From positions 2,501-66,500 of the forward strand of contig PUQB01000577.1 in assembly GCA_003024785.1 (NCBI GenBank): a stretch of 64,000 bases of DNA, in the 5' to 3' direction. How positions within the stretch are numbered: the stretch's first letter is position 1; each line of letters starts with the position of its first letter. The DNA comes from Selaginella tamariscina. Lineage: Eukaryota; Streptophyta; Lycopodiopsida; Selaginellales; Selaginellaceae. Below the pieces are notes generated by a model, which worked only from the letters and a program-made list of their open reading frames with translations, made no database searches and had not been told where the DNA came from. Below, in pieces: positions 29,189-63,639 of this stretch. The position numbers were made by a program, and so were the translations under genes.

Positions 29189-31319
29189 ATGATGAACGCC
29201 TTGAAGCAGCATGGCCACGACGAGATCCAGTCCTTTGCACAGCTAGTGCGATCCTGTGGCATTGCAAAAGATTTATGCGAGGCCAGGCGAGTACATTCAC
29301 GGATTCAAGACATTGCTCACCTGCGCAGGAACAGATTTGTCTCAAATCTCCTTGTAGAGATGTATGGGAAGTGCGGAGCTTGGAGGATGCACAGGAAGTC
29401 TTCAAAGGGATCTACGAGCCCAACAGCTACTCACACACAGTCATGATCTCTGCATACGCCCAAAACGGGCATATGCCAGAAGCAAAGTCTGCATTCGATA
29501 GCATGCCCGAGAGGGACGTAATCCCGTGGACAGCGATGCTCAGTGCGTATGCCTTGAACGGTGAACTACACCAAGCAGAGAGGTTCTTCAACTTGATGCC
29601 GCAGAGGAACTTAATCTCGTGGAACGCTATGTTACATGCATATGCCCAGAATGGGCATCCGAGCAAGGCTATGGATCTCTTTGAGGAGATGCCCGAAAAG
29701 AATTGTGTCTCGTGTAATACTGTGCTCACTAGACTGGCTCAGGAGGGGTTTCATATCAAGTGAGGGATCTCTTCGATGGGATTTATCAAAGAGATATAGT
29801 TTCCTGGACTGCGCTGATTGCTGCATTTACCACGAATGGTTATCTGGATGATGCCATGTTTGTTTTCAACAAGATGCCAGAGTCTGATGTCATTGCCTGG
29901 ACAACGGTGCTGGTGGCATTTGCGGAGCACGGAGAGATGGAAAGGGCGAGAATGATCCATGAGAGCATGCCCCAGCGGATATATAGTGGCCTGGAATGCA
30001 ATGATTCAAGCATATGCACAGCGTGGGCATGTCGACGAGGCAAAGCTTATCTTCGACAAGGTTCCAAAACACGATGTAGTTTCAGCGGTAGGTACATATA
30101 TTAAACACACTTCTTTCTCTCTCTCTCTCTATTATATATATATAGAGAGAGAGGGGGGAGATTTGCTTATTCTAATCTCGTGCAACGACAGACTGTGTTG
30201 ATTGCGGCATATGCCCAAGACGGGCATATCTCGGATGCAAGAGGGATCTTCAAGAGGATGGGACGGCACAATGTAGTCACCTGGAACGCACTGCTGCAGG
30301 CGTACGTGGAGATTGGGGACCTTCAAAATGCGAAAGCGTGCTTTGATGAGATGCCTCAGCCGGATGTAGTCTCGTGGAATGCAATGATATCAGCATGTGC
30401 CCAGAACGAGCAGCTGCATAAGGGCAGAGAGTTCTTCTTCATGAAAATGCCACAGACAAATGTGATCTCATGGAACACAATTCTGACAGCGTTTGCGTTG
30501 TATGGTCTCGTTGATGAGGCTCTTGTGGTGTTCTCGGAGATGCCCGAGCGTAATGTTGTATCGTGGAATGCGTGTATCCAGGCGTATGCTCAGAATGGGC
30601 ATATAGATGGGGCATACAGGACATTCATATCGATGCCTTCTCGTGACCTTTCTTCCTGGAACGCGATGATATCGGCGTACACGGTTGGGAGACTTCTCGG
30701 AGAAGCTGAGGACTTGTTCGAGAGAATCCCCGAGAAGAATGTATTTTCGGAGACGAACATGGTTTCGGCATATGCTCACAATGGACATATTACTAAAGCG
30801 AGGGAACTCTTCGATAAGATGAAGTTCCGTAACTTACTCACTTGGACTACAATGCTTGCTGGATATGCCCAAAGAGGGCATACCGAGGAAGCATTCGAGC
30901 TTTTCCACTTGATGGGGCTTGAAGGCATCGAACCAGATGAACTAACCTTCGTTGCTATACTCACAGCTCACAGTCAAGTTGGGTTGCTCCACGAAGGGCT
31001 TGCTTGCTTTAAATCGATGATCTCGGACAGAAGAGTTCGGCCTGTGTTACAACATTATCACTGTATGATTGATCTTCTCGGACGGGCTGGGGAGATGGTG
31101 GAAGCCGAGAACCTGATTCACAGCATGCCGTTCAAGCCAGAGGATGTATCATGGACGATATTACTAGGAGCGTGTAGAGTTCACAGGGATATGCAGCGAG
31201 CGAAAGTTGCTGCGGATAATATGATGAGAGTCGATCCTGAGAATGGTGCATCTTATGTTTTGTTATCAAATGCTGTCTCTGAAGAGGAGAACAAGCCCAC
31301 GTGTACCATTAATACATGA
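29189..31319 (+). CDS. PLS-class pentatricopeptide repeat protein (E-type end)
   Basis: PLS-class PPR proteins bind organelle RNA and usually specify C-to-U editing or processing sites. From 29189 the N-terminus reads 'SFAQLVRSCGIAKDLCEARR' and 'NRFVSNLLVEMYGKCG'. About 14 repeats follow of the type 'VVSWNAM..AYAQNGHI..A...FD.MP'. The last part has 'GIEPDELTFVAILTAHSQVG', 'HYHCMIDLLGRAGEMVEAE', 'WTILLGACRVHRDM' and 'DPENGASYVLLSNA', which are the E1-like end motifs. No DYW deaminase is present, so editing would need a partner. Stop at 31319. A single intron (30088-30191), carrying a CT microsatellite, interrupts a repeat. Frameshifts lie near 29387 (one A missing in 'YGKCGSLED'), 29755 and 29985. 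It is either a recent pseudogene or carries sequence errors. Confidence 0.85.
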
Positions 31320-34197: not shown

Positions 34198-36842
34198 ATG
34201 GCTCTCGTTCTCATAACAGCAATTTTAATCTCATATGTTCGAATTTCCACACAGCAAATCTCAGGTCCCCTTCCCTGCAGAGACACACGCCGGACTTGCT
34301 CTGCATTCCTTCATTACTTAGTTCCCCAGCAACAAACTATGCAACAGGTTAGCACTTAGATCCACATGTATTGTCTTGGTTTGGTTGTGTGTGTGCGTGT
34401 GTGTACACTGATTGTGTGTGTGTACACAGTGACAGTGTGTTGTTTCTTACCTGTATATTCAAATCAGGTGGAGACACAATTCAATGTATGGGCACCAGAC
34501 ATTTTGATAGAGAGTAACGGATTGAGTTTCGGACAGGCGGATTCTCCAAATGGGAAATCTATCTTCATCAAGGTTACATGTTCCTGTTCGTCCTCAAAGC
34601 GGTACGGATGTCTTGTTCCGTCTTCCCCGTACGACTTCCAGGGGCTTGCGTGGACAAATGGTAGTACCAAAGATATGACGTGGCTACTGTGCGGGTGCTC
34701 TAGTAACACGTATGCTTACGTATTAAGCCACGTCATTCAGGTAAAGACACGGTAGAGGGGTTGAGTAGCAGGTTTGGTTCCAATATTACTGCCATAGTTC
34801 AGCTTAACGACATGAAAGATCCCACTTATTTTTGCTAATGATGTTGTTTACTATGTGCCCGTTAACTCTGTAAGCACACACACCCATGTGTGTGTATATT
34901 ACGTATACATAGCTTTCATATACCATGTTTTATCCAGTTCCAGCAGTTCCAGGAGACCCTCCTGCAAATTCGCCTTCCGAAGGACAAGGTAAGAATTTAT
35001 AGTATTTCAAAAATCTCTCTTTCTCACACACACACGCACACGCACACACACTTGATTAACAACTTAACGCACTGATATATACGTGTTAACAGTTTTTGTA
35101 AGTGGGAAGAAGGTAGCTTTTCCATTGGGAGCCATCATTGCAGTTGGTGCTGGGGTTGTGCTAATTATATTACTAATAATATTGCTTCGTTGTGCTGTAC
35201 AACTGCACTTAAAAGAGACAACAGCGGTGAAGACTCGTTGTTTTACTACTTTTGCTGTTTAAAAACGAAAGGCTTCCCAGCTGCAAAGAAGCCCACCTTA
35301 TCAAAAGGTCTGCTGAAATTTATATTAATATGTATACACTCTCTCTCATACACACACGCCCGCACCAAAAGCGTAACTTTCATTTTGTAGCTTATGACGA
35401 ATGTGGAAAGACCTGTGGTGTTCTCATATGAAGAGATAGAGGCAGCTACGGATTGTTTTCAAAGAGAGCAACAAAATTGGTCAAGGAGCTTATGGGTCTG
35501 TTTTCTATGGTTTTCTTCGTGGTCAGGTACGCGTGTGTCAGCGTGTGTGTGTGTGCACGTGTGTCCTTATATATCTTTGACTGTCTTAGGAAGTTGCAGT
35601 GAAAATGATGAAAGCTACAAAGACAAAGGAATTCATGGCAGAAATCAAAGTCCTATGCAAAGTTCACCATGCCAATCTGGTATACATTTCATTTTAGATT
35701 AGGACTCTGCGTGTGTGTGTGTGTGGGCGTGTGTTTTGAAAATGTTATACAGGTGGAGTTGATGGGATATGCTTCATATGAGGATGAGCTTTTCCTAGTT
35801 TACGAGAATGCAACAAACCGATCTTTAAGTGACAGGCTTCACGAACCCCTTTCTCAAGGTGAGTGAGAATTATGTAACTCTTAAACTGATGCATTCTACA
35901 TGTAATGTTTCAACAGGATATGCACCACTATCGTGGATAACCAGAGTGCAAATAGCATTGGATGCTGCTAGAGGTTTAGAGTATATTCATGATCATACAA
36001 AAACACATTATGTGCACCGTGATATCAAAACAAGCAACATTCTTCTGGATGGAAACTTCAGAGCAAAGGTCTATAAAACTTAATCTTAAGAACATATTAT
36101 ATGTATGTGTACATATGTACGTGCGCGTGTACATATAGTTATGTAGCTGTTCTACAGATTGCAGATTTTGGTTTGGCTAAACTGATTGAGCAAGGCGAGG
36201 AAAGTGGAACGGTGACAAGAATAGTGGGAACTTTCGGTTATCTTGCACCAGAGTAATCAACTTATTGTTATTTACTAATTAATCATTTATAAAATTATTT
36301 TGCAGATATTTACGCGATGGGCATGCAACAACTAAATCAGATGTGTATGCATTTGGAGTTGTGCTTTTTGAACTCGTTACTGGGAGGGAAGCAATCCTGA
36401 GGAACAAGCAGCATGTTCCAAGCACTCCAGAACGACGATCGCTCATCTCCATGGTATAAAGTAATTTTGTTTAATTACAATGATCTAATCTAATCTAATT
36501 TAATATATTATGCAGATGTTTTCTGCATTGAGAAACTCTACACCAACATGTATTAATAAGCTGAGAGAAGTAGCTGACCCTTGCTGGACAACACATATCC
36601 TAGTGACTGCATGTACATGGTAAGTATATGTCGCACACGCACTACATAACATAGCTCAGTTGGGGTTGATTCATGCAGATGGCAGTTCTAGGCCAAGAAT
36701 GTGTAGAAGAAGATCCTACGTTGAGGCCTGATATGAAACAAGTGGTGCTAATGTTGTCCCAAATTCTGTTGAACTCCATTGAATGGGAAGGAACACTGGC
36801 GGGAATAGTCAAGTGTTCAGTGGAATAATACAAGGAAGATAA
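34198..36842 (+). CDS. LysM receptor-like kinase, LYK3-like (copy 1, full length)
   Basis: LysM kinases sense chitin-type or lipo-chitooligosaccharide glycans at the plasma membrane. The start at 34198 gives a signal peptide ('[18 protein letters not shown]'). The ectodomain contains '[14 protein letters not shown]', '[15 protein letters not shown]' and '[15 protein letters not shown]'. A transmembrane helix lies at about 35116-35190 ('[17 protein letters not shown]'). The kinase follows with '[11 protein letters not shown]', '[14 protein letters not shown]', '[19 protein letters not shown]', '[15 protein letters not shown]' (RD type), 'IADFGLAKL' and '[16 protein letters not shown]'. It ends with '[20 protein letters not shown]' and 'NSQVFSG', stop near 36842, as in AtLYK3-type proteins. 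At least ten exons are visible. One extra base near 35460 breaks '[12 protein letters not shown]'. One base is missing near 36801, where copy 2 (51746) keeps the frame. It is probably a functional gene or very recently damaged. Confidence 0.85.
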
Positions 36843-37183
36843 AGTATTGTGTACATTTACTAAAGAATGTAGTCTATATTTATACTTATCAAGTTAAAAT
36901 GAAATTTAAATCATCAACATGTACAGCTACAAGACATCTAGTCAGCCTCAGTACATGTGGACCCCAATTTAACCAAATAAATTTTAACATTATAATTATT
37001 AATACAGACTTTTGTAATTTACATATTAAGTGTTCTTTATGTTTAATCTCAAATGCTTCATATATACATCTTAGTTTAATATCTTATTTTAATATTTCAT
37101 TTAAGAATGTTTTTTTAACATCTTATTTTACTATTTCATTTAAGAATGTTGTTTTTTAACGTTCATGTTATGCAGTTCAATAT
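36843..37183. repeat. 3' flank of LYK copy 1, duplicated at 51788-52269
   Basis: The downstream sequence ('atcaacatgtacagctac', 'gtcagcctcagtacatgtgg', 'aaataaattttaacattata', 'atttcatttaagaatgtt') is matched in order at 51788-52269. The copy at 51.8 kb has about 140 extra bases near 51850-51980. Homology stops at 'gttcaatat' in both copies, in copy 1 exactly where the GC-rich element end begins. Confidence 0.8.
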
Positions 37184-37385
37184 GGGGCACGGCGAAATTC
37201 GAGCGCAGGTCAACGAGCTTGACCTAGATTTCCGAATATTCTTGAATATTCGTTGTTCCGTACGATTTCCGTCTAGATATCCTCGAATATTCTGTACGGA
37301 AATTTTTCGTACTGCCAAGTGTACACACAATTGGACCTTCCAAAATTTTCAAGAATATTCTAGAATATTCTAGTGCGGCGGCCGC
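37184..37385. repeat. Left terminal inverted-repeat candidate of the composite element
   Basis: It begins with GGGGCACGGCG, includes TTCGAGCGCAGG, several GAATATTC palindromes, TTCCGTACG, and ends near GTGCGGCGGCCGCATAC. The landmarks recur in inverted order at 45480-45622. Spacing between landmarks differs, so the arms have diverged by indels. Confidence 0.6.
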
Positions 37386-37548
37386 ATACAAAATATGGTA
37401 GTATATTTTTGTTGTATTTAAAGAAAATATATGTTAAATTACTTAAAAATATGCTAAACATAAAATTACCATTAAAATTTATATTGAAAATTATAAGTTT
37501 GAAATAACAAATATAAAACCGAAGCTGTTTGAAAACAAACCAAACACA

Positions 37549-40396
37549 CTAAATAGATGGTGGAGGATGGAGGTTCCTTGGTAGCATCAATAAAGAACTT
37601 AGTTCACGGGGTGCAAGTGTACGACGTTGCAAATGCTTGACAACTCGAGGATCAGCTCCCAGTACACGCTTGTAAACAAAATACATATGTTTGCAAGGCA
37701 CCCACTGACGACCATTGCAGAACTCCGAGCATGAACAAGATGGTGCGCTACAAATGACAACCCAAGCAGATGTATGGTCGTTGTCACATACTCTGAAGCG
37801 AATGCATGTTGGAGGATCAACCACGTCAACTTCTGCGACATATGCTCCCAACGTCAAACATGCTTCAAAACTTACCTGTTGTTTCTTAGACATCCCTAAA
37901 GGTGTTCTTGTTGCACGACCACTTGCAGGAACAGGAGGTCCACGAAATTGTGCAGGGGGTGTTGAAAATCCAGTGACTCCAACAGGAACTGAAGGAACAT
38001 GAGGTGTTGAAAAACCTGGCACTCCTGCATGAGCTGAAGGAAGCCCAGCTAGCATAAAACCTGATCTTGCCAGATCATTGATCTCCATTGCTATCAGCTT
38101 CGTGCCCACTTGAACTTTCCAAACCGAGGTAGAAGCTGGCGGAGAAACAATAGTTGGTCTTGGATGTCTGTTGCAAAGCATGTTTGTTGGACAAAAATAC
38201 ATCATTTGTGAGCGAAAGCATTCTTCACCAGTTTCTTTGTCATTGTATCTGATCCTTCCAAAAAAACAAGGAGCAGCCACTCGATTACCACTAGGACTGA
38301 TCTTTTTGTCACAAGCACTCCACTGACCTCCTGAAGAGGGAAAGCCTGCCAGACATTTCACAGAACTTCTTTCACCACATCTTCTAATCGCCCATTGTCC
38401 AGGTGTAACATCTTGTTCTTCAACCAGAACATATTCTTCATGTTCTTCTGCAAGTTGAAAATCCAATCGTCGCTTCCGTCTACACTGTGTTGGAATAACC
38501 TGTTCACTATAGAAGATGTCCGGTCGGTGGGATCGTTCAGCCTCTGACCCCATATTTCTTTGCACAGTGCGATGTTCAACATTCGTGGCAGCCACAAAAG
38601 CAGTATCCTGCATGCTTGATGGAGCAACATCTTCAACTAAGTCGATGATAACCTTTGCTGTAGGTGTTGTTGAGTTAGCATTTGACATTCTTCTCTCGAA
38701 CCTTGCTGAGAGCTCCTCTGAAGTCGGCCCGGAACCACTATACCTTCCATCTCTAAAAGCCTTCACAAGAGCACATTGTCGCACTGATTCAGTCAGGTCG
38801 TGGATTGTAGCTTGGTACAATGAAATGTATTTTGAATCTCTAGCCCTCCTCCATCTTCCGTGAACAGACTCCGACTGGTTTGTCATGGGCACAACCCTTG
38901 CAGCATTCTCCGGCATGCTTTCAAGAACAACATTTGAAATATGATTCTTCTGTCTTTCCCACCATGAAAACCACGTCTGCATAACTCCAACATCCTTCAC
39001 ATTTTCATTCCAAAAGCGGAAAAGATTATTTTCAATTTCTTCACGATCAGTTGTTGATGTGGCTGTTGGCCATGATCTCAAAAGTTGAAGATGTTGTTGT
39101 TGATGTTCAAGAGGGACCCACTTCCTTGTCACACGTTGTATGGCTTGTTCATAGTGAAAGATACAGCTCCGTTCACATCCAGAATTCTTGGCCATAAAGA
39201 AACATTCCTAATTGCTTGCCAGATCGCTCCTGCTTCATCGGACATAAACCCCAGCGAACTGCACATTGTAGATTCCCTTCTCGGAACAGACATCCAACAT
39301 AGCACGAAAAAACTTCTCCACAGCTCCAGCCGTTTGTCTCTTCATGTCACCATAAGCAATGGTGGATAATCGGCGCACACTATAAAATAATCAAGAGTTA
39401 AGCAAACAACAAAAAGATACATCTTACTTTGGGTCGTAAACATGCAATGATCCATGCTTATCCAATTTCCAGGCTCAGAATTATCTAATAGGAAACCAAG
39501 ATAGCATCTTTACATGCTGCCATTTCGATGACTCTTGGACTAGCTCTGGGAGTTCTTTCTGTTGCATTCTGGACCGCCATATGCATTTCTTCTTTGTTCG
39601 ATGCAGAAACACCATCACCCACTGGATGTGAATGTTTTCCCTGGTGGATAAACAATCTAGTCTTGGTTATGTCGTCTGGGAAAACGCAAAACGCCACAGC
39701 ATGACAAACTTCAAGGCACAATGGATTTTCTTTACAGAAAAAACATGTCAATCCTTTTGCCAGTTTGTCGATTGAAGGTGGGGAAACAATACATCCTTTC
39801 CATTTAGTGCAGTTCGGAAATCCTGCCTTAGAAGCAGGGCAGTCCGGGTTGATACAGCAAAGGCTCCCAACACATTTGCTCCTGGACACCCTCGCTTGAA
39901 AATTCCAGTTGCTGGTCGTTCCTGCTGTCCAGGTATGTCCATCCTCTTTCCGATTCATTCCTTTGTATTTGTATTCGGAAGGAGGGAGCTCAAAAATGAC
40001 ATCCCCATCATACGCAATAGGCAATTCATTTGTATGAATGATCGTGGAACCCTCGATAAGAATTCTTCCCTTTTTGCAGGTATTAGAAGTGAAAAGGTTC
40101 TTCAACGTTGAGTATTCAGAGTCAGAAGCAACGACAAGCTTAAACAATGGTCCTTCATCCGGTAACAAAACATATCCTGGATTATCCTTCCCTCCAGCAT
40201 CTTGGTCCTCGTTTATTTCGATCTCTAAAGCAGATTGCCCATGAAGAAGTTTAAAAAGACGAACACTTTGCCAATCAAAAATGCCAAAGAACGTTCTAAT
40301 CTGATTAGTAAGAATGATTCCAACACCATCTATCACAGGAACATCGTGATCCAAATTGCCGTAAACAATCCTGGCCATTTTGCAAGCAGTTACCAC
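37549..40396 (-). pseudogene. MULE-type transposase with GCM-like zinc domain and SWIM finger
   Basis: It would cut and paste element DNA through an RNase H-like DDE core. Reading from 40396 downward (alternative start 40378, 'MARIVYGNLDHDVP'), the first block to about 39485 has a Cys/His cluster: 'SRSKCVGSLCCINPDCP', 'CTKWKGC', 'CFFCKENPLCLEVCHAVAFC' and 'HQGKHSHPVGDG'. This resembles the GCM/WRKY-GCM type DNA-binding domain of MULE transposases. Next comes 'DNSEPGNWISMDHCMF' (candidate first Asp), a probable intron near 39375-39420, and 'GFMSDEAGAIWQAIRN' (candidate second Asp). A 548-codon block follows (39195-37549) starting 'CERSCIFHYEQAIQRVTRKW'. It ends in the SWIM pattern CxC-CxH ('CSCSEFCNGRQWVPCKH'). 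Frame changes near 39490 and 39240 break continuity. The third catalytic acid was not assigned. Confidence 0.75.
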
Positions 40397-41019
40397 AAAC
40401 GTGACAGAAAAACAACAGCATTACTTAATCATCTTTTGGTAAATATCGGATATTACCATTTCAAAAATTCACAATCATGACTCAACGTGGGCGAATATTT
40501 AATTCAAGGAAACGTATAGATCTTAGATGCTAATATAGTATAGCACTTCACGTAGAGATAGAGCAATCTTTATTGTCTTTTAAATAAATGTGTGTCTAAT
40601 CTACATTCATCTGACATATTTATTTATGACTTGTTTATATTCTGTTAATTTATTATTATAATTATATAGTTATTTGATCCAGTATTTTATCAAATGTAGA
40701 CATTATAAATACATATTTTTACACGAATATTTATTTAATTATATAATAATATATTTTTTTAACATACAAATTTTTACTTAAATATGTGTTTGTATTTGTA
40801 TCCTTTTATATAGTATGTTATTTATCGTAAGTATTATATAACTGTTGTATGGTTTAATTAAACACAGTTTTATAGTTAAGGGTCAAAGGGTTAAGTGTTA
40901 GATTTTAGGGTAAAGGTTAGGACTACCCATTCTTCTTCTCCATTCTCCATTGTTGAGAGAGGGCACTTTTTGTTCTTTTTTTTGCGGCGACAAGAGGCTA
41001 GTGTGAGCGTCACGGCGAC
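40397..41019. promoter_or_regulatory. Divergent intergenic region between transposase and methyltransferase genes
   Basis: The two genes start in opposite directions from this ~620-bp AT-rich segment, which therefore probably holds both promoters. A more balanced stretch at 40920-41019 precedes a small exon-like ATG (41020) followed by a donor (ctacag/gtaaaa). Read through, that ATG would hit a stop in the next exon, so it is more likely leader sequence. No specific TATA box is assigned. Confidence 0.45.
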
Positions 41020-41164
41020 ATGGCTACAGGTAAAATCTTATATATGTGTATAGTAATTTCTGTGAATGTATGTGCAAATTCAGTAGGATTTCTTTGTATT
41101 CACAAACGCACGCGCGTGTGCACACACACACACACCTCCGACGCATGAGTTATTGCCGATTTCG

Positions 41165-41240
41165 GCAAACACACACACACACACACACATTTCCTGCCAA
41201 TTCGGGCAGGAAATCCGTGTGTGTGTGTGTGTGTTTTTGC
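41165..41240. repeat. Long (CA)n / (GT)n hairpin in the methyltransferase leader intron
   Basis: GCAAA, a CA run, ATTTCCTGCC, a short loop (aattc), GGCAGGAAAT, a GT run and TTTTTGC make a stem of about 33 bp. The unique 10-bp centre shows that this is a true inverted duplication and not only two opposed microsatellites. It lies in the leader intron 41030-41704, which also holds AT runs at 41290-41370. Confidence 0.8.
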
Positions 41241-41326
41241 GCACACACATAAATAACATTTTACACAATGATTTACAACAAGACTTGTATATATATATAT
41301 ATATATATATTTATATCTTAAAAAAC

Positions 41327-41373
<47 letters not shown>

Positions 41374-41705
41374 GTATAAGTATATGAATTTAAGACTTGT
41401 ATATATGAGATGATGCTTTTTCGTCTGTATATACATGTGAAGAGATATGAATATACCCATATTCTCTCTCACACAGACACATCACAAAACACAAACATTG
41501 CACACACACACACATAATCAACATTACACACATACACAAGGAACATTATATAGTGAGCACACACACAAACAACATTACACGTATAAATATGTGTGTGTGT
41601 GCGTGTGTGTCTATATATATTGATAGGTATACATATATAGTAAATGTGTGTCCATAAATTAAAACAACTCACACACACACACTTATCAGTTGTTGTAATT
41701 GCAGA

Positions 41706-44700
41706 ATGAGACAAAGGCAGAGTAAGAGACTACGAGATAAATACAAGACTTTGACACTTCAAGAACATATCGTCCAAGAAGCTCTTGCAGATATGGCTCC
41801 AAAACCTCGTGGCAAGAAAGGAGGCCGAGGCGCCAAGCAACAACTGCAACACAAGAGATGATGCCGACGAACAATGAACCTGTGGATAGTTCGCAAGTCA
41901 TTGATGAACATACTGTGGTGAGTGAATGGATGCCTAGAAATAGGGAGATTGCAGGAAGCTCTGCAGAACACGGTAATGCAGAGGAAGTACCGGATATTGA
42001 TCTTGGTAGTAAAATGTTCAATAAGAAGAGGAAACTGGATGCTCCTGAGGATGTTGCCGAATCATATGCAATTCCGGAGCGGCTGACACTTGAGGCTCCA
42101 TCCAAGCTTCTTCGGGATCTTGTTATTCGGTATGACAGATATTGACACATCGCTACAAGGACGAGACCACTACGTTCCAGTTGAGCTTGGTGAGCCTCCG
42201 CGTATCCCGGTTCACAGGTTGCTCCCACACCAACGTTTGAGGAATGTCACTAAGGACGGCGTGAAAGACCTTGTTGGATGGATTAGAGCTGAAGGATTTT
42301 ACCAGGAGACGTCAGTGTTCACCTTATCTTTCGGACCACAGCTGAGTGCAGACGAACGCCGAAGTTGGAATGAGTCAGAAGCACAGGTCGATAGAGAGTT
42401 TGAAGCGGATTTGCATAAGCCAGCATTTTCTGCATGGTATCGATTTCTGAAAGATGCAAAGTTTCTGGTGTGGGATGGGAATCATCGTCGGGTTGCTTTG
42501 AACACTTTGCTTGCTGAAGAGCCAGGTTTGAAATGGACTTTGCGTGTACGTGCAACACTCATAGCATCCACAGTGCAAGAGGAGAAGAGACTAATCGCTG
42601 CTTGCAATCGGTTGAATGAGTAAGTGACTTGTTTGTTTCATTATTTAAATACTAAATAAATGTTGTTTTTTTTGCAGAGCAACTGCTCGTGTGGTTCCTA
42701 CAACAATCATTCACACCTTGCAGTTCTTACGGAATTGTTGTGTGAAGTCTGCAGATCTTTCTACCGATCATGTTCTTCGCGGGATGCCGGAGGAAGATAG
42801 AAAAGCTGTGGAAGTGTGGAGATCGAACAGAAAAGAAGACGTTTGGTACGAGTATCCAAAGACGACATTGGTGAAGATTTTTTGGGAGGTAATCTTTTCT
42901 TCTTCTTTTGACTGTTTTTTGATTTTCGGTTTCTTTTGCAGAATCAACTGAAGCGACAAATCGCTACAAAACTTGCGAACAGAAAACCAAACCAGACAGA
43001 ATCTCAGATCCTCTCCAGCGTTTACAAGACATTCACAGTTCGGATGAACAAATTCCTCACCATTGCTGATCCGGCGGTCGGTGAAGATTGGTTCAAGGCG
43101 ATCACAGATATCACTATCAAACCATCAACGAAGCAAATAACTCTGGAGAAGCTTCAAATGCTCGCGAAGTCCCAGCTTCCTTCCAACGTCAAGGTTGATA
43201 TCCTTGGAAAGCTTGTGCACATTCAAGAACGTGGCGTTCTTGAGAAGCTGGTGAACATGACGGAGAAAGACAAGAAGGAAGGTGTCACCGGCTGGCCTGA
43301 CAAGGACTTCATCAAGTTTTTGCACATCTTTACTTACTGGTTCCAGGTAATTTAATATTTATATTTTTCATTTTTACGTTTTATCGTGCCAGGTCGCGGA
43401 GGCAGCTAAAGAGCTTTTGGTCGAGCATGTAGAGGAGTTCATGACATGGTATGAAGATGCACAATGAAATTAAGTTGGATATGTACCAGAACATGCTCGA
43501 GAACAAGGAGTTCGGTGCGACAATTCCACCTCCTCGACTATTTGAGCTGGAAAAATCTGCAAAAAGAATGGCATTCAGGCAAGTTTTTTTTTTGTTTCTT
43601 TACAGATTTTTATCTATTTTTACAGGTTTTTAAAATGGAAAAACGATGCACTCCCTGAAGATTTCAAAGAGTGGATGGATGTTACCAAGGATTCTAGCAT
43701 GTGGAGCCGGTTGTTACGTGATATCAGTGATTACGAAGTGGAACACTGTCCTTTCTGGCTGGATTTCCTTCCTGGTGACTGTCCCGAATGGGAGATGGCC
43801 AGCTATAAGATACACAAGGATGATCGGCGAGAGCTATTATGGAAGAACGACAATGCTGCAAGGAAGCTCCATGTGAAGATGGATATCAGGTATGCTAGAT
43901 CGGCGAGCAAGGTCAGCAAGGGACAAGCTTCTTCTTCAGCCCCATCCTTCATCTCGGCTGGATTGGAAGAAGATGATATGTTGAGGATGGTGATGCCTGA
44001 GAAGGGAAATGGAAGCTGGGAAATCATTCATGCAGATTCAGAGAACCTTGCAGTCCAGTACTTCAAAGCCGGAAGGCCTTTTCCGTCAGGATTGAAGGAG
44101 CTTGAGGATTGGATCGTGAGTCACAAGTCAAGTTGGACTATTCATGTGTTTGGTGCGAAGCCTCCACCAAAATGCATCCAGGGAGCTGTTGATCTCGTTG
44201 TCATCGACCCGCCTACCGGATGCGTTGCTGAGGCAGGCGGGATGGTGGATCAATACACGAAGTTCTCGGATGCTTTGCTGAAGAACTTGGTGAACCTTGC
44301 TTTCGGGATATTAGACAGAGCTGGCCATGTGGTAGTGTTTGTGCTACCGGATGATGTTCTAGCTTTGAAGAACACTGCAGAAACTTGCAAGCTAAAGTTT
44401 CTGCAGATGAGTTATGTGCACACGACAAAGTCATGGGGATACCGTTTCTCTAGAAAGGTAATTCTTCTTTTTGAGAATGTCATTTTTTAATGTTTATTTT
44501 TTCAGGAAAGCATCATTGCCATGTGTATTTTTGGTTCCCCCTACTCTAAGGTTGCCAAGAACAAGGAGATCTTGGACACTCGCTACACTCTTCTTTTTGA
44601 TGAGCCAGAAGATTTCCAGCTCCCATGGTATAATGTTGTTTGTTATTTCTCATGTTCTAATATTGTAACTTTCAGGATTTCAATTGGCCCGAAATCTCCC

Positions 44701-45330
44701 AAGTTGTTTGCGATGCTAGTGGAGAAGCTCACAAAGCCTGGTGGAACTGTTGTGGATCTAACAGTGGGAACCGGTGCTAGTATTCTTGCAGCTTTTCACA
44801 CAGGGAGACATGGTTATGGAATCGACATCAACAAGGATCTGGTTTTAGCAGCCAGAGATGTCTTCAGGAAGGTCATTCCAAGTGTTACAGCAGCTGAAGG
44901 TGGTGGGGATGATCAAGTTGTTTCCATGATTACTCCTTTTGATGAGTGGAAGAGGGCCATGGAAACAGAAGCACAGGATTTGCCTTTGGCTAGCGACAAC
45001 GATGGAGACCAGGATCCGCCTTCTCGAAACGACAAGGATGTTGTTACGGAGAAGTCCGTGGAGCACAACGACGAGTCATCAGATGAGTCAGCAGAAGAGA
45101 GATCATACGAGTCATCAGATGATGAGTGAGATTTGTTTTATCATTTCTTTGGTTTTAAACTTTAATATGTTTTCAGTATTGTTCTACCAGACTACGCTAA
45201 TCAGATGGCAAAGAAAATGGTTGAAGAGTTCGAAGTTTACGACAGACAGATTTTGGAGAAACGTTCACGACACCGTAACAATGCATTCATTAACGACGAG
45301 GCACTGGCTGGTGGAAACGAGTCTTCATGA
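41706..45330 (+). CDS. ParB-like domain fused to beta-class DNA N6-adenine/N4-cytosine methyltransferase
   Basis: A predicted nuclear DNA-modifying protein. The N-terminus is basic ('MRQRQSKRLRDKYK', 'KPRGKKGGRG') and has an NLS-like 'NKKRKLD'. A ParB/sulfiredoxin-like domain is encoded at about 42165-42590: 'RIPVHRLLPHQRLRN', 'LVGWIRAEGFYQ', and the signature 'FLVWDGNHRRVALNTLL'. A long alpha-helical middle spans 42678-43345. The methyltransferase part has 'GAVDLVVIDPPTG' (motif IV) at about 44187. It is followed by 'KPGGTVVDLTVGTGASILAA' and 'HGYGIDINKD' (motif I/II region) at about 44737-44835. Motif IV before motif I is the beta-class order. An acidic Ser-rich tail follows, then a last exon 45177-45330. 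Introns: 42620-42677, 42889-42942, 43347-43393, 43578-43625 (GC-AG), 44457-44505, about 44628-44674 and 45128-45176. Frame breaks are near 41850, 42125 and 43450. DPPT lacks the usual aromatic after DPP, so activity and target base are uncertain. Confidence 0.75.
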
Positions 45331-45479
45331 TTGAGTTATGTTTTTATTGTAATTTTTTTTAGTTTGATGCGGTATTTATATAAAAATATAATTATAGTTA
45401 TAAATATTAAAAAATAAAAAATATAAATATAAATATATATATATGTCAGATTAACCCCCAAATTTGTGAAACTTGACAC
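45331..45479. other. 3' region of the methyltransferase gene
   Basis: AT-rich sequence with an AT run at 45434-45442 follows the stop. It probably contains the 3' untranslated region. No further coding signal is seen. Confidence 0.4.
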
Positions 45480-45622
45480 CATTACTGTGCCGCCACAATT
45501 GCCCGGCCGCCGCACCGGAATATTCTTTATGCAAAAATGAATATTCTGTACGGAATGGAATATTCCGGTATGACAGAAATCCGTACGCTCGGCAAACTGC
45601 GCTCGAGGAAATGTCACACACC
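45480..45622. repeat. Right terminal inverted-repeat candidate of the composite element
   Basis: Contains GGCCGCCGCACCGGAATATTC (45509-45529 region), a second GAATATTC, GTACGGAA, and CTGCGCTCGAGG at 45597-45608, the inverse of landmarks at 37184-37385. A related remnant lies near 60565-60625. Confidence 0.6.
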
Positions 45623-45782: not shown

Positions 45783-46983
45783 AGAAGCCCACGTTATCAA
45801 AAGGTCTGCTGAAATTATATTAGTATGTATACACTCTCTCTCATGCACCAAAAGCGTAACTTTCATTTTGTAGAGCCTATGACGAATGTGGAAAGACCTG
45901 TGGTGTGGCAGCTACGGATTCTTTCAAAGAGAGCAACAGAATTGGTCAAGGAGCTTATGGGTCAGTTTTCTATGGTTTTCTTCATGGTCAGGTACGTGTC
46001 AGTGTGCGTGTGTGCCCTTATATATCTTTGACTGTCTTAGGAAGTTGCAGTGAAAAGGATGAGAGCTACAAAGACAAAGGAATTCATGGCAGAAATCAAA
46101 GTCCTATGCAAAGTTCACCAATACATTTCATCTTAGATTAGGTGTGTTGAATATGTTATACAGGTGGAGTTGATGGGATATGCTTCATATGAGGATGAGC
46201 TTTTCCTAGTTTACGAGAATGCAACAAACCGATCTTTAAGTGACAGGCTTCACGAACCCCTTTCTCAAGGTGAGTGAGAATTATGTAACTCTTAAACTGA
46301 TGCATTTTACACAAGTGCTTGTAATGTTTCAACAGGATATGCACCACTATCGTGGATAACCAGAGTGCAAATAGCATTGGATGCTGCTAGAGGTTTAGAG
46401 TATATTCATGATCATACAAAAAACATTATGTGCACCGTGATATCAAAACAAGCAACATTCTTCTGGATGGAAACTTCAGAGCAAAGGTCTATAAAACTTA
46501 ATCTTAAGAACATATTATATGTATGTGTACATATGTACGTGCGCGCGCGCGTGTGTACATATATTTATGTAGCTGTTCTACAGATTGCAGATTTTGGATT
46601 GGCTAAACTGATTGAGCAAGGCGAGGAAAGTGGAACGGTGACAAGAATAGCGGGAAACTTTTGGTTATCTTGCACCAGAGTAATCAACTTATTGTTATTT
46701 ACTAATTAATCATCTATAAAATTATTTTGCAGATATTTACGTGATGGGCATGCAACAACTAAATCAGATGTGTATGCATTTGGAGTTGTGCTTTTTGAAC
46801 TCGTTACTGGGAGGGAAGCAATCCTTCCCGAGGAACAAGCAGCATGTTCCAAGACGATCTCTCATCTCCATGGTATAAACTAATTTGTTTAATTACAATA
46901 ATGTAATCTAATGTATCATGCAGATGTTTTCTGCATTGAGAAACTGTACACCAACATGCATTAACAAGCCCAGAGAAGTAGCT
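45783..46983 (+). pseudogene. LYK copy 2, 5'-truncated kinase part before the copia insertion
   Basis: This is nearly identical to 35280-36570 of LYK copy 1, introns included ('ctgctgaaatt', 'gtatacactctctctcat'). It lacks the signal peptide, LysM ectodomain and transmembrane exons, so it is a 5'-truncated genomic duplicate, not a retrocopy. Small deletions remove part of '[11 protein letters not shown]' (near 45903) and the 'CKVHHANL' donor (46118). 'GTFGYLAPE' is frameshifted (46660). It retains '[12 protein letters not shown]', 'EVAVKRM' and the HRD and DFG regions. Homology is interrupted at 46983 by the LTR element and resumes at 51518. Confidence 0.88.
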
Positions 46984-47499: not shown

Positions 47500-49800
47500 A
47501 GGAAAGTGCAATCGCTCGCTATAGTCTACTCATCCAGCTGATAAGCCCATCATCTAGAAGAAACACATATCCTGAAGTGGACTTCTTGGTCTCCTTGTTT
47601 CCTACCCAATCTAAATCTGTGAAACCCACTAGATCCATTACCATGTGATCGCCTATAGAGCTCTCACTAGCTGAATATGTGAGACAGAACCCGACTGTGC
47701 CTCGCAAGTATCGTTGGCTGATGTCCAATGAGCCTCTCTTGGATTCTCTACAAACCTGGAAACCACTTCGACTGCAAAAGCCAAGTCTGGTCGAGTGGAA
47801 ATGGCTAGATATAACAAACAACCAACTATCTACTTATAAGGAACCTGTGCCATGACTCGTCTCTCCTCCTCAGACGTCGGCTGTTGATCCTTTGAAAGCT
47901 GTGTGTGTACGTCCATGGGGGTGCTGACGGGTTGTTGTCGGCCATGTTGTACTTTTGAAGTATCTCTTGCACATAGTGTGCTTGAGATAGCTAAATCACC
48001 CTTGCATCTCTATCCCGGAACACATGAATGCCCAAACAATAGCATAGGTCGCCAGTTGCGGAGATCTCAAACTGAGATTGAAACTGGTGTTCGAAGAATT
48101 GAACAAGTCGAAACTGGCTTGCAGCCATGATGTTGTCATCAACGTATAATGCTAGGTAAGCAAAGTCCACTCCCTGCCGAAAGACATATACGTTTCCATC
48201 TGCAGTGGACTTCTAGAAACCGATGGAGGTGAGAAACCTGTCTACATGATCATACCAGGCTCGTGGTAACTACTTCAAGCCATACAGGGCCTTTCAAAGA
48301 CGACAAACGTTGTGTTTCTGTCCTTGCACCACGATCCCTTAGGCTGTGTAGTGTAGTCCTCCTTCAGCTCTCCATACAAGAAAGCAGTTTTTACATCAAT
48401 CCAAATTCAAGCTAATTGCTATTCGAAGAATGAGACGAATGGAAGCCATTTTCACCACTGGTGAATACGTCTCATAGAAGTCGACTCCAACGATTTGTGA
48501 GAATCCTCGTGCAACGAACCGAGCCTTGTATCGGAGTACTTCGCCCTGCGCATCCAACTTCTTCTTGAATAGCCACTTGGTACTTACTGTGCAGCGACTA
48601 TGGGGAAGAGTAACAAGCTCCCAAACCTGGTTCTTGAGGAGAGAAGCATATTCCTCCTCCATGGTGGCCCTCCATTCTGCCGCCTCCTGCGATTGCATCG
48701 CCTCATGCATTGTCTAGGGCTCTCGAGGATACATGGAGGTGAAGAAGGAGGTTGAAGACTCATCAACTTCTCTTGCCTTTTGTGGCTTATAACTAATTCT
48801 CCCACTTCTCGTGATTGTGTTGATGGGTCGGGCTGGATTAGGTACCTGCGGAGGTGCTTGCTGAAGTGGAGGAATCTCCTCCTCGCTTTCATGCTCCTCC
48901 TCACTCAGATTTGGATTTGCTGCAATTTGCAGTTTTGGATCAGGCCCCTGTGTCGGTGGATCATGTGGTTGCTCTTCCTCAAGAATATACGCCGTCAGAT
49001 TAACTTGAACTGTAAAACTATCCTTGTAAAGCATATCCTCATTAAACTTAACGTCACGGCTCACAACAATTTTCTGGTGTAAAGCCTATATGCCTTGCTC
49101 TTATGGCAATATCCCATCATGATATACATGTTACTCTTCTGCTCCAACTTACGACGGAATTCGTCCGGAACGTGTGCATATGCCAGGCACCCAAACACAC
49201 AGAGGTGTTTCAAATTGACTCGCTTCCTAATCCACCGGGTGAATGGAACTTCTCCACCAATGTTGTTTGCAGGAAGTCGATTCCGGATGTAGCTAACTGT
49301 GCTTAAGGCCTCTGCCCAATAATTGAGAGGTGTTCTACATGCATAAGCATGCATCTTGTCATCTTCACTAGAGTCTGATTCATTCTCTCCGCCACTCCAT
49401 TTGCTGAGCTGAGTATGGGCTGTAAACTGCTACTGAATCTCAGATTCTTCACACACTGTCTTGAGCACACTTGCTTGATACTCCCACCTTTATCACTCCT
49501 AAATACGCAAATTTTCAAATTCTGCCACATGTTTTCTGTAGCAATCTTATATAGCCGAAACATTTCTGCTACCTTTGATTTGTTAATTAAGAATTTCACC
49601 ACTGTGTAACGAGTATAATTATCTATAAACATCACAAAATACCTCCTTTTGTTCAATGACTGAACATGCATTGGTTCACACACATCTGTGTGCACTAATT
49701 CTAGAGGTTGAGTGGTCTTACAATATGCCCTTACTGGGGAATGGCTGCCTATGTTGTCTTCCAAAATAGCATGCCTCACAAAACTCAAGGTTGTCTCCAA
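47500..49800 (-). pseudogene. Copia pol remnant: integrase, reverse transcriptase, RNase H
   Basis: Reading downward from 49800: an integrase core with 'LELVHTDVCEPM', 'YFVMFIDNYTRYT' and 'SSANGVAERMNQTLV', then 'TPLNYWAEALSTVSYIRNRL' and 'HLCVFGCLAYAHVP'. After a linker (49064-48714) comes reverse transcriptase: 'WRATMEEEYASLLKNQVWEL', 'KWLFKKKLDAQGEVLRYKAR' and 'FARGFSQ'-type residues. The YVDD catalytic box is intact near 48150-48140. RNase H 'GFTDLDWVGNKETKKSTSGY' lies at about 47650-47590. Stops and frameshifts separate the blocks. Confidence 0.88.
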
Positions 49801-51517: not shown

Positions 51518-51787
51518 TAACTGACCCCTTGCTAGATAACACATATCCTAGTGATTGCATGTATATGGTAAGTATATGTCACACACTCACACAACAGAGC
51601 TCAGTTGGGGTTGATTCATTCAGATGACAGTTCTAGGCCAAGAATGTGTAGAAGAAGATTCTATATTGAGGCCTAATATGAACAGATGGTGCTGATGTTG
51701 TCTCAAATTCTGTTGAACTCCATTGAATGGGAAGGAACACTGGCCGGGAATAATCAGGTGTTTAGTGGAACAGTACAAGGAAGATAA
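51518..51787 (+). pseudogene. LYK copy 2, 3' end after the copia insertion
   Basis: Resumes 'tgaccccttgctagataacacat' and then the last exon ('[10 protein letters not shown]', '[20 protein letters not shown]', 'VFSGTVQGR', stop at 51785-51787). The C-terminal frame is intact here, unlike in copy 1. 51788-52269 continues the duplicated 3' flank. Confidence 0.88.
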
Positions 51788-52269
51788 AGTATTGTGTACA
51801 TTTATGGAAGAATGTAGTCTATATTTATACTTATCAAGTCAAAATGAAATAAACTGGTGCTGGTGCAAAAAATGTGTATCTATGTTTCCTATCCCTAATG
51901 AATTTTACAAACCAATACAACTTAAGTTAGTTACTTTTAAAATACAGTTTGTAAACCTTCCTTATGCAAAGTTATTATTAAATCATCAACATGTACAGCT
52001 ACAATCTAGTCATCCTCACAAATACATCCCAGTCAGCCTCAGTACATGTGGACCCCAAGTTAACCAAATAAATTTTAACATTATAATTATAATTATACCA
52101 TAATGTGGGTGACTGTTTAATACAGACTTTTGTAATTTACATATTAAGTGTTCTTTATGTTTAATCTTATCTTATTTAATATTTCATTTAAGAATGTTTT
52201 TTTAACATCTTATTTTACTATTTCATTTAAGAATGTTGTTTTTAACGTTCATGTTATGCAGTTCAATAT

Positions 52270-55538: not shown

Positions 55539-56423
55539 GTGTTGGATGCCATGCGTGTGCAATTGAACAATCATTCTCAGTTGATGGCAGCATTCACAGG
55601 CCAGGGTACTCCTCCTACGCATGTTGCAAACCCCCGTGTCCGACCGGATTTCTTTCGCGGAAATCCTGGAGATGATGTGTACCATTGGTTTGACCACTTC
55701 ACTGTGGTTGCCACATATCATTCGTGGGACGGTGCTCAGTGTTTGCGCGAGTTTCCTACTTGTCTTCAAGGGACGGCGTTGCAGTGGTACAATGGTCTGG
55801 ACGTTGCAACTCGTGGCGATTGGAATATTCTTCCAGAGATCTTCAAACGTGCATTTGGGCATGCGGACGACTGTGATGATGCTTTTCAGCAGTTGCATCG
55901 TATTCGTCAGGAGCCGTCTGAGTCGGTGATGCAGTTTGGTGTTCGCTTTCGAAGCCTTTTGCTGCGTGCAGAACCTAACATGTCGGAACGCATCAAGTTA
56001 GGTATGTTGTGGCCAGCACTTCGTCAAGACCTTGTGGGGCTTGTGCATGCACTAGCTCCAGTGACTCTTGACGATGCTTTGAGGCTGGCACAACGATATG
56101 AGTCGTCACCTCTCCCACTTGTGCCTTCACGTGCTCTTGTTCCACTCCATGTTGGGGATGGACCTGCTCCGATGGAGGTTGAGGCTGTTGCCGCTCGTGT
56201 ACCAGCACAAGGTGGGGCCCGTGGACGAGGACGTGGACGTGCAGTTCGTTGTTGGGCATGTGATGAGGTTGGACACACGTATCGGCGCTGTCAACGGTTT
56301 CCCGATTGGCGTCCCCCATTTCCAGGATGGAGGCCATGGCGGCAACAACGTCCGGTTGGTGCTGCTGCAGTGGAAGGTTGTGATGCGGTGGATCTTCCGG
56401 GAAACGACGAATCGCACGAGTAG
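55539..56423 (+). CDS. Gypsy Gag (capsid and zinc knuckle)
   Basis: 294 codons from the ATG at 55539. A retrotransposon gag domain is shown by 'VYHWFDHFTVVATYHSWD', 'LQGTALQWYNGL', 'AFQQLHRIRQEPSESVMQFG' and 'LVHALAPVTLDDALRLAQRY'. An Arg/Gly-rich segment follows ('GGARGRGRGRAVR') and then a CCHC knuckle 'CWACDEVGHTYRRC'. An earlier ATG at 55489 opens another frame ('MNPQQTNPLSVEQ') that meets this one after a one-base shift, so the true start may be upstream. It overlaps no pol frame; pol begins about 27 bases after the stop. Confidence 0.88.
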   Translation: MLDAMRVQLNNHSQLMAAFTGQGTPPTHVANPRVRPDFFRGNPGDDVYHWFDHFTVVATYHSWDGAQCLREFPTCLQGTALQWYNGLDVATRGDWNILPEIFKRAFGHADDCDDAFQQLHRIRQEPSESVMQFGVRFRSLLLRAEPNMSERIKLGMLWPALRQDLVGLVHALAPVTLDDALRLAQRYESSPLPLVPSRALVPLHVGDGPAPMEVEAVAARVPAQGGARGRGRGRAVRCWACDEVGHTYRRCQRFPDWRPPFPGWRPWRQQRPVGAAAVEGCDAVDLPGNDESHE

Positions 56424-56449
56424 AGGAGGGTCCTCGTGCGAATAAATTA

Positions 56450-59400: not shown

Positions 59401-59774
59401 GGTCATGACCCGGTGTTGCCAACGGAGTTGGGTTTGCCGTCTCGGTTACCGCGAGAGCTGATGCTAGGTCATGGGATCGGTATCTGACAAGCATCCTTCC
59501 ATTGGTTCGTGCGGAGTCAGCAGAACACTTGGGCCGCGTACAAGTAGGACAACAACAACGGTACAACTCGCATCATCGTCCTCCTGCGGAGTACAAGGTT
59601 GATGAACTGGTGTTGGTTCGTTTTCCCAAGCTTACGGTACGTGGTTTAGCTAAGAGTCTCCTTCCTCAATGGAAAGGACCGTATCGAGTGTTACGGCAAG
59701 TAGGACCACAGGTTTATGAGGTTCGGCACGACATTCAACCCGATCCTCCGGAATTGTACATGTACAACGGTTGA
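56450..59774 (+). pseudogene. Gypsy Pol (protease, RT, RNase H, integrase), two frameshifts
   Basis: 56450-57640: aspartic protease with 'VLVDTGSSLSSVSQSV' and 'LILGMDWL', then reverse transcriptase with 'GVIRKSRSPWACEPHLVTKP', 'RFCIDYRPLNEVTV', 'FTKLDLASGYWQVPM', 'LVMPFGLSNAPATFQRMMD' and the catalytic box 'ADFIDDVLI' (FIDD in place of YVDD). A frame change near 57640 leads to 57646-59487: RT connection, RNase H ('LRVDASDIGLGGVLMQ', 'NYSTTEKECLAAVWGFEK'), a zinc-binding HHCC ('HMGHRRVMEKLRRSFYWPEL', 'CVWCQ') and integrase core ('ELVAFDLMGPFPR', 'RILSDNGPAFMAEAF', 'TDGLVERLVRTFKGM') with all three acids. A second change near 59487 leads to 59502-59774, ending in a beta-barrel-like tail ('LLPQWKGPYRVLRQVGPQVY'). 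Confidence 0.92.
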
Positions 59775-62705: not shown

Positions 62706-62984
62706 AGAAATATTTTAAGTTAAACAAGTGCAAAGAACAACACAAGTTGCAAGCTTACCTCATCATTACTATAATTGATAGCTTTGTTTGTCTCCTTCAA
62801 TGAGTCATTATTTTCACTAGACTCTTGTTTCAAAGTGCTATGTGAATATACATTCAAAACTTGAAATCACTTTAGCATTATCTTACATTGGAATGTCCTT
62901 AGGCTTATTTTCTTGTACGCAGGTGGGACTATCACCACTGCTTTTAGTCGTTCATGTCTAACTAGAATAATGGTGTGGGTTCAT
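62706..62984. other. Spacer before LYK fragment 3
   Basis: AT-rich sequence with no gene recognised. Confidence 0.4.
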
Positions 62985-63482
62985 CAAGATGTGTATGCAT
63001 TTGGAGTTGTGCTTTTTGAACTTGTTACTAGGAGGGAAACAATCATGAGGAACAAGCAGCATGTTCCAAGCACTCCAAAACAATGATCTCTCATCTCCAT
63101 GGTATAACTAATTTTGTTTAATTATAATGATCTAATCTAATCTAATCTATCGTGCAAATGTTTTCTACATTGAGAAACTCTACACCAACATGCATTAATA
63201 AGCTCATAGAAGTAGCTAACCCTTGTTGGATAACACATATCCTAGTGATTGCATGTACATGGTAAGTATATGTCACAATGCATGCATGCATGCACACAAT
63301 AGAGCTCAGTTGGGTTGATTCATGTAGATGGCAGTTATAGGCCAAGAAAAGATCCTATATTGAGGCTTGATATGAAACAAGTGGTATTGATGTTGTCTCA
63401 AATTCTATTCAACTCCATTGAATGGGAAGAAACACTAACCAGGAATAGTCAAGTGTTCAGTGGAATAGTAGAAGGAAAATAA
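62985..63482 (+). pseudogene. LYK fragment (copy 3), 3' end only
   Basis: It starts abruptly at 'gatgtgtatgcatttggagttg', equivalent to 36338 in copy 1. It carries the last kinase exons and their introns ('[16 protein letters not shown]', 'LVIACTW', '[17 protein letters not shown]') to a stop near 63481. It has more substitutions than copy 2 and a deletion of 'CVEE' near 63343, so it is the older duplicate. It cannot encode a kinase. Confidence 0.85.
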
Positions 63483-63639
63483 AGTATTGTGTACATAAGA
63501 ATGTAGTATATATGGTGTCAGGGGCCTAGTGCTAAAAAGAGTTACTATATCCCTCGATAAAGGAGGAGATATTCATCCCTTATGATAAGGTCCATGTTAG
63601 CAGTTAAAACGTTGGATTTTAACTCCAAAAACTTGAGTT
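63483..63639. other. Short spacer after LYK fragment 3
   Basis: The first bases continue the LYK 3' flank ('aaagtattgtgtacat'), then the sequence becomes unrelated ('ggtgtcaggggcctagtgct'). This marks the duplication breakpoint near 63515. Confidence 0.5.

Follow-up and report, generated by a model that had tools for sequence, protein, structure and literature searches.

A probable autonomous two-gene Mutator-like transposon of Selaginella tamariscina carrying a ParB-methyltransferase gene

The window analysed in this study is a stretch of 64,000 nucleotides from the lycophyte Selaginella tamariscina (NCBI GenBank assembly GCA_003024785.1, contig PUQB01000577.1, positions 2,501 to 66,500 of the forward strand). 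It contains a composite transposable element, in which a transposase gene and a gene for a ParB-like protein fused to a bacterial-type DNA methyltransferase (further referred to as ParB-methyltransferase) lie between common ends. The same gene pair is found between the same ends at other loci of the genome, and the composite element moves as a single unit. It appears to be a two-gene autonomous Mutator-like element (MULE), whose intact copies are predicted to carry the full coding capacity. The explanation that best fits the whole, to which we give a probability of roughly 0.55, is an autonomous MULE whose ParB-methyltransferase acts on the element's own DNA.

Results

Copies of the element

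Copies were searched for in an assembly of 300.7 Mb and 1391 contigs, where the window belongs to contig C923. The 40 scored matches of the left end, out of 129 candidates, were 98–100% identical, hence the element has at least 40 copies; for the right end 40 of 135 candidates were scored. At 34 of the 40 left-end places, the window included, a right end lies 8.4–9.2 kb from the left one. Both genes were present between the same ends in 18 of 20 fetched left-end loci, the remaining two hitting a contig end (L009) and a run of N (L016). Among 19 further left-end places (the window being the 40th), 15 have the right end at the expected distance and in continuity with the end of the methyltransferase gene. 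The other four are two loci that run into N (L031 and L045), a rearranged locus (L043) and C336, which breaks in the spacer microsatellite; the right end of L031 was matched by a loose pattern and was left out of the counts. Two diverged full copies, L068 (C755:14600-24500) and L069, were found via the right end of the window copy. Together with them, the 18 fetched copies and the window copy make 21 copies read nearly end to end, all with both genes. They represent 20 sites, since L020 and L021 occupy one insertion site, which is also that of L016. Co-mobility of the two genes, inferred in a preliminary description of the window, is thus shown.

No copy with only the transposase between both ends was seen in the set of 40 left-end places, of which 34 were closed. 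C336 was considered as such a copy, as its left-end side stops in the AT microsatellite, and was rejected: methyltransferase exons lie 11–15 kb beyond its left end, and it is therefore taken as carrying an inserted segment.

The possibility of a single-copy host gene was addressed by a six-frame search with the whole methyltransferase protein, in which the 44 best loci of 2342 first-look candidates were scored. A listed element end is situated near 29 of them (both ends at 15 of those). For the other 15 the expected end positions were fetched; right-end sequence was found at all 15, partial in some, and left-end sequence at eight. On the left side of the remaining seven, two are still within the element (one is cut by a contig end) and five have no left-end sequence. 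Therefore all 44 scored methyltransferase loci belong to the element, and no host parent gene was found among them; a distant host paralogue may lie among the lower-scoring candidates. Pack-MULEs are defined by a captured host gene fragment and absence of a transposase, whereas here the transposase gene is present, and it is intact in six of 19 copies.

Ends, target sites and palindromes

Positions 37184 and about 45622 are the termini of the element. The right terminus reads ...TGTCAAACCC in most other copies and ...TGTCACACACC in the window copy. Copies fetched from end to end measure 8.77–9.05 kb (about 8.9 kb), and the window copy measures 8.44 kb. Alignment of the left end with the inverted right end gave a local score of 36, compared to the best of 27 in 500 dinucleotide shuffles (65 vs 50 with softer scoring). 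The terminal inverted repeat, a MULE feature that varies and is at times poorly developed, is short and imperfect here and exceeds each of the 500 shuffles. By eye, the landmarks noticed earlier follow in the same order in both ends, namely GGG...CGAGCGCAG, the GTACG/ATTTCCGTC blocks, the GAATATTC repeats and GTGCGGCGG. The head-to-head arrangement was likewise described correctly: the 5' ends of the genes face each other across an AT/CA microsatellite, and the genes are therefore divergently transcribed.

An exact 9-bp repeat is present at the ends of 11 of 19 aligned copies (the 18 fetched ones and the window copy), in agreement with the 8–11 bp, usually 9 bp, target-site duplications of MULEs. 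These repeats directly adjoin the left terminal region and abut GGGGCACGG (AGGGCACGG in L024) and ...CAAACCC (CAACCC in L015). In five copies the repeat is shorter or imperfect (L011, L020, L021, L023 and, by eye, L010), and none was found at the window copy, L022 and L028. In a second batch, an exact repeat of at least 9 bp was found in nine of 15 copies; one of these repeats lies in low-complexity CT sequence, and that of L038 clearly exceeds 9 bp. The other six copies had none or 5–6 bp. Several loci have the same left flank and different right flanks (L031/L032/L035, L036/L041 and L044/L046), a pattern suggestive of chimeric assembly or of recombination among copies. The same cause may explain the window copy, which has no duplication. 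Gene pieces that are 82–93% alike flank the element on both sides (35287-36905, 45783-46983, 51518-52269 and 62983-63496) and resemble receptor kinases, by eye only. The window copy sits between two such kinase-like units, which may bear on the absent duplication.

In all 19 aligned copies of the element the palindrome GAATATTC is confined to the ends, with five occurrences on the left and two or three on the right (5+3 in 15 copies and 5+2 in four). The counts in the diverged copies are 4+3 (L068) and 2+3 (L069), again with no internal occurrence. In 5000 mononucleotide shuffles of both L021 ends GAATATTC never occurred more than once, and in 3000 shuffles no 8-bp palindrome of any kind occurred more than twice. 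Outside the element the window contains GAATATTC seven times, mostly within AT-rich sequence. As candidate sites, the palindromes may be bound or modified by either the transposase or the ParB-methyltransferase.

Transposase

The exon models of both genes were predicted on the basis of open frames and splice sites; all introns are GT-AG, except for one GC-AG. The intact transposase has 1037 amino acids in three exons. A MULE-type transposase with a GCM-like zinc cluster and a SWIM finger had been proposed from the window copy; the gene on the minus strand is confirmed, while none of the domain labels reaches the Pfam cut-off. Intact copies show the motifs LLDHTH, FMSDEAG, C-x2-H, NQSES and, at the C-terminus, CxC...CxH; among them are the D, D, C2H and E expected of a MULE transposase domain. 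The full-length protein had no significant Pfam match, neither MULE nor SWIM. The top Pfam match of a 136-aa piece with the Asp-Asp-Glu (DDE) core is MULE (E=0.0051, profile positions 2–96 of 99), below the cut-off, and the sole match of a C-terminal piece is SWIM (E=0.59), also below it. Many MULEs, though not all, have a SWIM zinc finger. The GCM-like cluster has no Pfam match, and its label is based on spacing judged by eye. No relatives of the transposase (residues 150–1010) were found at E<=0.1 among 4191 protein candidates in a collection that is possibly poor in plant genes.

The window copy lacks most of exon 2 with LLDHTH and the first catalytic Asp, as well as intron 1 and the end of exon 1. 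The deletion measures 384 bp relative to L021, L015, L010 and L018, and 376 bp relative to L026. The sequence is present at this site in all 18 other aligned copies, and exon 2 is intact in L021.

The same genome also contains a conventional MULE family, with 77 matches to PF10551, 16 places with an identical top score and frames of at most 673 aa. None of the 77 matches falls at the listed places of the composite element; the nearest one on shared contigs is 28.8 kb off.

ParB-methyltransferase

The intact protein has 1042 amino acids in seven exons and consists of a ParB-like part and an N6/N4 methyltransferase part. The multi-exon gene of the preliminary description is present, and its methyltransferase domain is supported: PF01555 matches the intact protein with E=3.3e-8 and the open frame of the window copy with 6.1e-6. 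A phage DNA-methyltransferase profile (PHROG 67) matches with E=1.6e-10 and covers both motifs, IV and I. Motif I is present, and motif IV precedes it, as in the beta class. The best PDB sequence is MboIIA, a non-significant match (E=0.53). The ParB label has a weaker basis, the motif DGNHRR and a sub-threshold match of 28 residues to DndB (E=6.4e-4 with the piece as query, 0.0056 with the whole protein). DndB is related to the ParB superfamily.

Homologues of the protein (residues 150–1000) were absent at E<=1e-3 among 7992 scored candidates, again from a collection possibly poor in plant genes, and those of the methyltransferase part at E<=1 among 1194 protein candidates. A tblastn search of phage records with the whole protein gave nothing at E<=1, and a single-protein query of IMG/VR, which detects close relatives only, returned no homologue.

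Intactness, age and selection

Eight of the 19 aligned copies have an intact methyltransferase frame (L012, L014, L015, L017, L021, L023, L026 and L028) and six have an intact transposase frame (L010, L013, L015, L020, L021 and L027); L015 and L021 retain both genes. Many of the single-base breaks may come from assembly error. The window copy has lost the first catalytic Asp with about 380 bp and its methyltransferase gene is frameshifted; it is therefore non-autonomous and dead.

In the main set, variable sites of the methyltransferase gene comprise 65 singletons and two shared ones. Over some 6.2 kb of coding sequence, eight of 18 copies do not differ from the majority by any substitution (L020 was excluded, its insertion site being represented already). 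Judging by this pattern, most of the sampled copies stem from a very recent burst.

For the diverged copies, substitutions were counted against the intact models in codons with a single change, gapped codons and those with two or three changes being dropped; these are simple counts with no codon model. The L068 methyltransferase gene has 33 nonsynonymous vs 50 synonymous changes, which with the neutral ratio of 3.1 gives omega of about 0.21 (p=4e-12). In L069 the counts are 31 vs 60 for the transposase (omega 0.17, p=2e-16) and 20 vs 17 for the methyltransferase (omega 0.38, p=0.006). Hence both genes were under purifying selection during this divergence, before the burst. The transposase gene of L068 is nearly the same as in the young family (two nonsynonymous and two synonymous changes); L068 is probably a mosaic copy, which suggests recombination between element lineages. 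L068 keeps DGNHRR, DPPT and TVGTG unchanged. L069 keeps LLDHTH, FMSDEAG, CIFHYEQ and the SWIM-like stretch, and has a gapped codon just after the Glu of the Glu motif.

Coordinates and other features of the window

The coordinates of the element are given in Table 1. Elsewhere in the window, pentatricopeptide repeats with a sub-threshold E-motif match, as would be expected in a land plant, are found at 30180-31319. Region 1633-2337 is an imperfect repeat array, open on both strands and largely self-complementary, with direct and inverted self-matches. Open frames of retrotransposons contain RNase H and integrase domains at 57646-59487 (within 55539-59487) and an integrase core at 49303-49800 (within 48396-49800); by eye, Gypsy and Copia types are represented.

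Table 1. Features of the composite element in the window.
Feature	Position	Strand	Content	Basis
Element	37184..45622		transposase gene (-) and ParB-methyltransferase gene (+)	sequence
Left terminal region	37184..37385	+	starts GGGGCACGGCG; five GAATATTC palindromes	40 scored copies, 98-100%
Transposase exon 3	37549..39379	-	second Asp, C2H, Glu, SWIM-like	sequence
SWIM-like CxC..CxH	37687-37737	-	within transposase exon 3
Glu, NQSES	38866-38880	-	within transposase exon 3
C2H, CIFHYEQ	39145-39165	-	within transposase exon 3
Second Asp, SDEAG	39228-39242	-	within transposase exon 3
Transposase deletion site, window copy	39443..39450	-	about 380 bp gone	BLAST break, element position 2260-2266
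Transposase exon 1	39450..40378	-	GCM-like Cys/His cluster CVGSLCC, 39854-39874	by eye
Divergent intergenic region	40400..41700	.	AT/CA microsatellites	sequence; C336 copy breaks here
ParB-methyltransferase exon 1	41706..42619	+	DGNHRR, 42474-42491, ParB/DndB-like; frameshifted in window
ParB-methyltransferase exons 2-4	42678-42888, 42942-43346, 43393-43578	+	frameshift in exon 4, window copy
Methyltransferase exon 5	43626..44457	+	motif IV DPPT, 44206-44217
Methyltransferase exon 6	44506..44627	+
Methyltransferase exon 7	44676..45129	+	S-adenosylmethionine (SAM) motif DLTVGTG, 44755-44775; acidic tail; stop
Right terminal region	45480..45622	+	three GAATATTC palindromes	40 scored copies of 135 candidates

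Discussion

Known carriers of ParB-methyltransferases

The preliminary description knew of no MULE with a ParB-methyltransferase. This stands for MULEs, as our literature searches, whose coverage mostly excluded subscription papers, found no MULE or land-plant carrier; there is, however, a precedent in other transposon superfamilies, described in the available portion of PMC12477816. According to it, Sola1-1_Ec32 of the brown alga Ectocarpus is 21.5 kb long and encodes a 1104-aa protein with ParB and N4/N6 methyltransferase domains, and such proteins were proposed to bind and epigenetically modify their own transposon. As in the element studied here, the accessory gene for a ParB-like protein with a bacterial-type amino-methyltransferase lies on the strand opposite to the transposase and is of similar size. 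Unlike here, the transposase belongs to the Sola1 superfamily, and the likeness is one of description. The same portion of PMC12477816 mentions similar ParB-methyltransferases in transposons of green and red algae, citing Iyer 2011 and Petroll 2025, and giant EnSpm elements of red algae that carry accessory genes. These are also proteins of eukaryotic transposons, whereas the hosts, being algae, differ.

In a survey of MULEs, the table of extra motifs lists SET, FAR1, an ovarian tumour gene, minisatellites and zinc fingers, and the word "methyltransferase" is absent from the main text (PMC6446971). A functional parallel is provided by the VANDAL MULEs of Arabidopsis. According to the abstracts, their VANC proteins also act on non-coding DNA of their own element, and the VANC target motifs are often tandem repeats; VANC differs in that it causes loss of DNA methylation and of other silent marks, and neither ParB nor an amino-methyltransferase is mentioned there (PMC5735166, PMC10398659). 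Bacterial and phage ParB-methylases, such as Bce_0392, share the fusion of a ParB-like domain to an adenine methylase, as far as the available text of PMC5512222 describes them; in contrast to them, the gene described here contains introns and resides in a eukaryotic transposon. New, apparently, is a carrier of the Mutator type and in a land plant, the earlier carriers in the available sources being drawn from algae. Evidence of selection on the accessory gene is also new with respect to the literature searched.

Role of the ParB-methyltransferase and alternative explanations

We infer that the ParB-methyltransferase may act on element DNA. Possible roles named in the preliminary description were to mark or shield the DNA of the element, or to alter host silencing. 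The ParB-like part would bind or clamp the GAATATTC palindromes of the ends or DNA close to them, and the methyltransferase part would modify adenine (or N4 of cytosine) at the element ends. The modified ends might then stay accessible despite silencing by host cytosine methylation, a role similar to that of VANC. Alternatively, the modification could time transposition to replication. In IS10, hemimethylation ties transposition to replication. The anti-silencing role seems the likelier of the two. If DPPT makes the enzyme inactive, the same protein could act through binding alone. A more specific proposal is that a plant transposon puts N6-methyladenine (6mA), N4-methylcytosine (4mC) or a related mark on its GAATATTC arrays as a self-tag that blocks silencing and/or licenses transposition, the module having been recruited independently, as an accessory system of general use, by a MULE, Sola1 and algal transposons. 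We consider this proposal tentative and, on the whole, doubtful.

Several observations weigh against an autonomous MULE whose ParB-methyltransferase acts on its own DNA. None of the MULE, SWIM and DndB profile scores reaches its curated cut-off, and a DDE piece of 90 aa, shorter than the one above, ranks RsbRD_N first (0.023) and MULE second (0.069). When the ParB part was modelled from a single sequence, the result was poor (pLDDT, the predicted local distance difference test, of 52), and a PDB fold search with it gave no match at E<=0.001; the model was set aside. Motif IV is DPPT in L026, L068 and the window, whereas active beta-class enzymes have (D/N/S)PP(Y/W/F). The available text of PMC8885841 gives DPPY, SPPY, NPPY, DPPY/F and DPPW as variants of motif IV in amino-methyltransferases, and reports that bdelloid N4CMT loses its activity when Ala replaces both Ser and Tyr in SPPY. 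The GAATATTC palindromes may serve as transposase sites only. At least one gene is broken in 17 of the 19 aligned copies. In young copies, 26 nonsynonymous or stop singletons stand against 15 synonymous ones in the methyltransferase, and 22 against 7 in the transposase, compared to the neutral ratio of about 3:1; being near neutral, these ratios give no clear selection on either gene there. Finally, since the transposase of L068 is near-identical to that of the young family, the two genes may differ in history through recombination.

The chief rival is that the accessory protein is a non-catalytic DNA-binding factor with the ParB/methyltransferase fold, which helps transposition or synapsis of the ends. 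DPPT in place of DPPY, kept even in the diverged L068, and the restriction of the palindromes to the ends agree with it, and purifying selection does not require catalysis. On the other hand, the SAM-binding stretch, superfluous for a pure DNA-binding protein, has been kept, as seen from the unchanged DLTVGTG, the match to PF01555 (3.3e-8) and the PHROG profile that covers both motifs (1.6e-10). On balance we regard a purely binding function as rather unlikely. Even less probable is that the element is not a MULE and belongs to another superfamily with SWIM, or to an undescribed one. KDZ/Zisupton is an example of a SWIM-containing superfamily. Such an origin would agree with the full-length transposase having neither a significant Pfam match nor relatives at E<=0.1 among the 4191 protein candidates, and with none of the 77 PF10551 matches in the genome falling at the listed places of the element. 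The 9-bp target-site duplication, the position of C-x2-H between the second Asp and Glu, and the sub-threshold MULE match of the 136-aa DDE core, which spans almost the entire profile, argue for a MULE.

The least probable alternative, which we consider very unlikely, is that the element captured the methyltransferase gene as neutral cargo, in the manner of Pack-MULEs, and draws no function from it. The available text of PMC6446971 describes the tendency of MULEs to pick up host gene fragments, and the substitution pattern in the young copies is near-neutral. Neutral cargo is difficult to reconcile with a seven-exon gene that, while often broken, is present in all 21 copies read nearly end to end, with its omega of 0.21 and 0.38 in the two diverged copies, and with absence of an element-free parent gene among the 44 scored loci. 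Moreover, ParB-methyltransferases are reported from other transposon superfamilies, as follows from the portion of PMC12477816 referred to above.

Implications

The element bears on the question of whether transposons of eukaryotes place bacterial-type methylation on their own DNA. It is young and present in many copies, some of them intact, and has a defined gene pair, defined ends and a candidate target motif; native DNA of the source plant could be read for 6mA and 4mC. If the ParB-methyltransferase does act on the element's DNA as proposed, MULEs would have a second means, in addition to VANC, of influencing their own epigenetic state.

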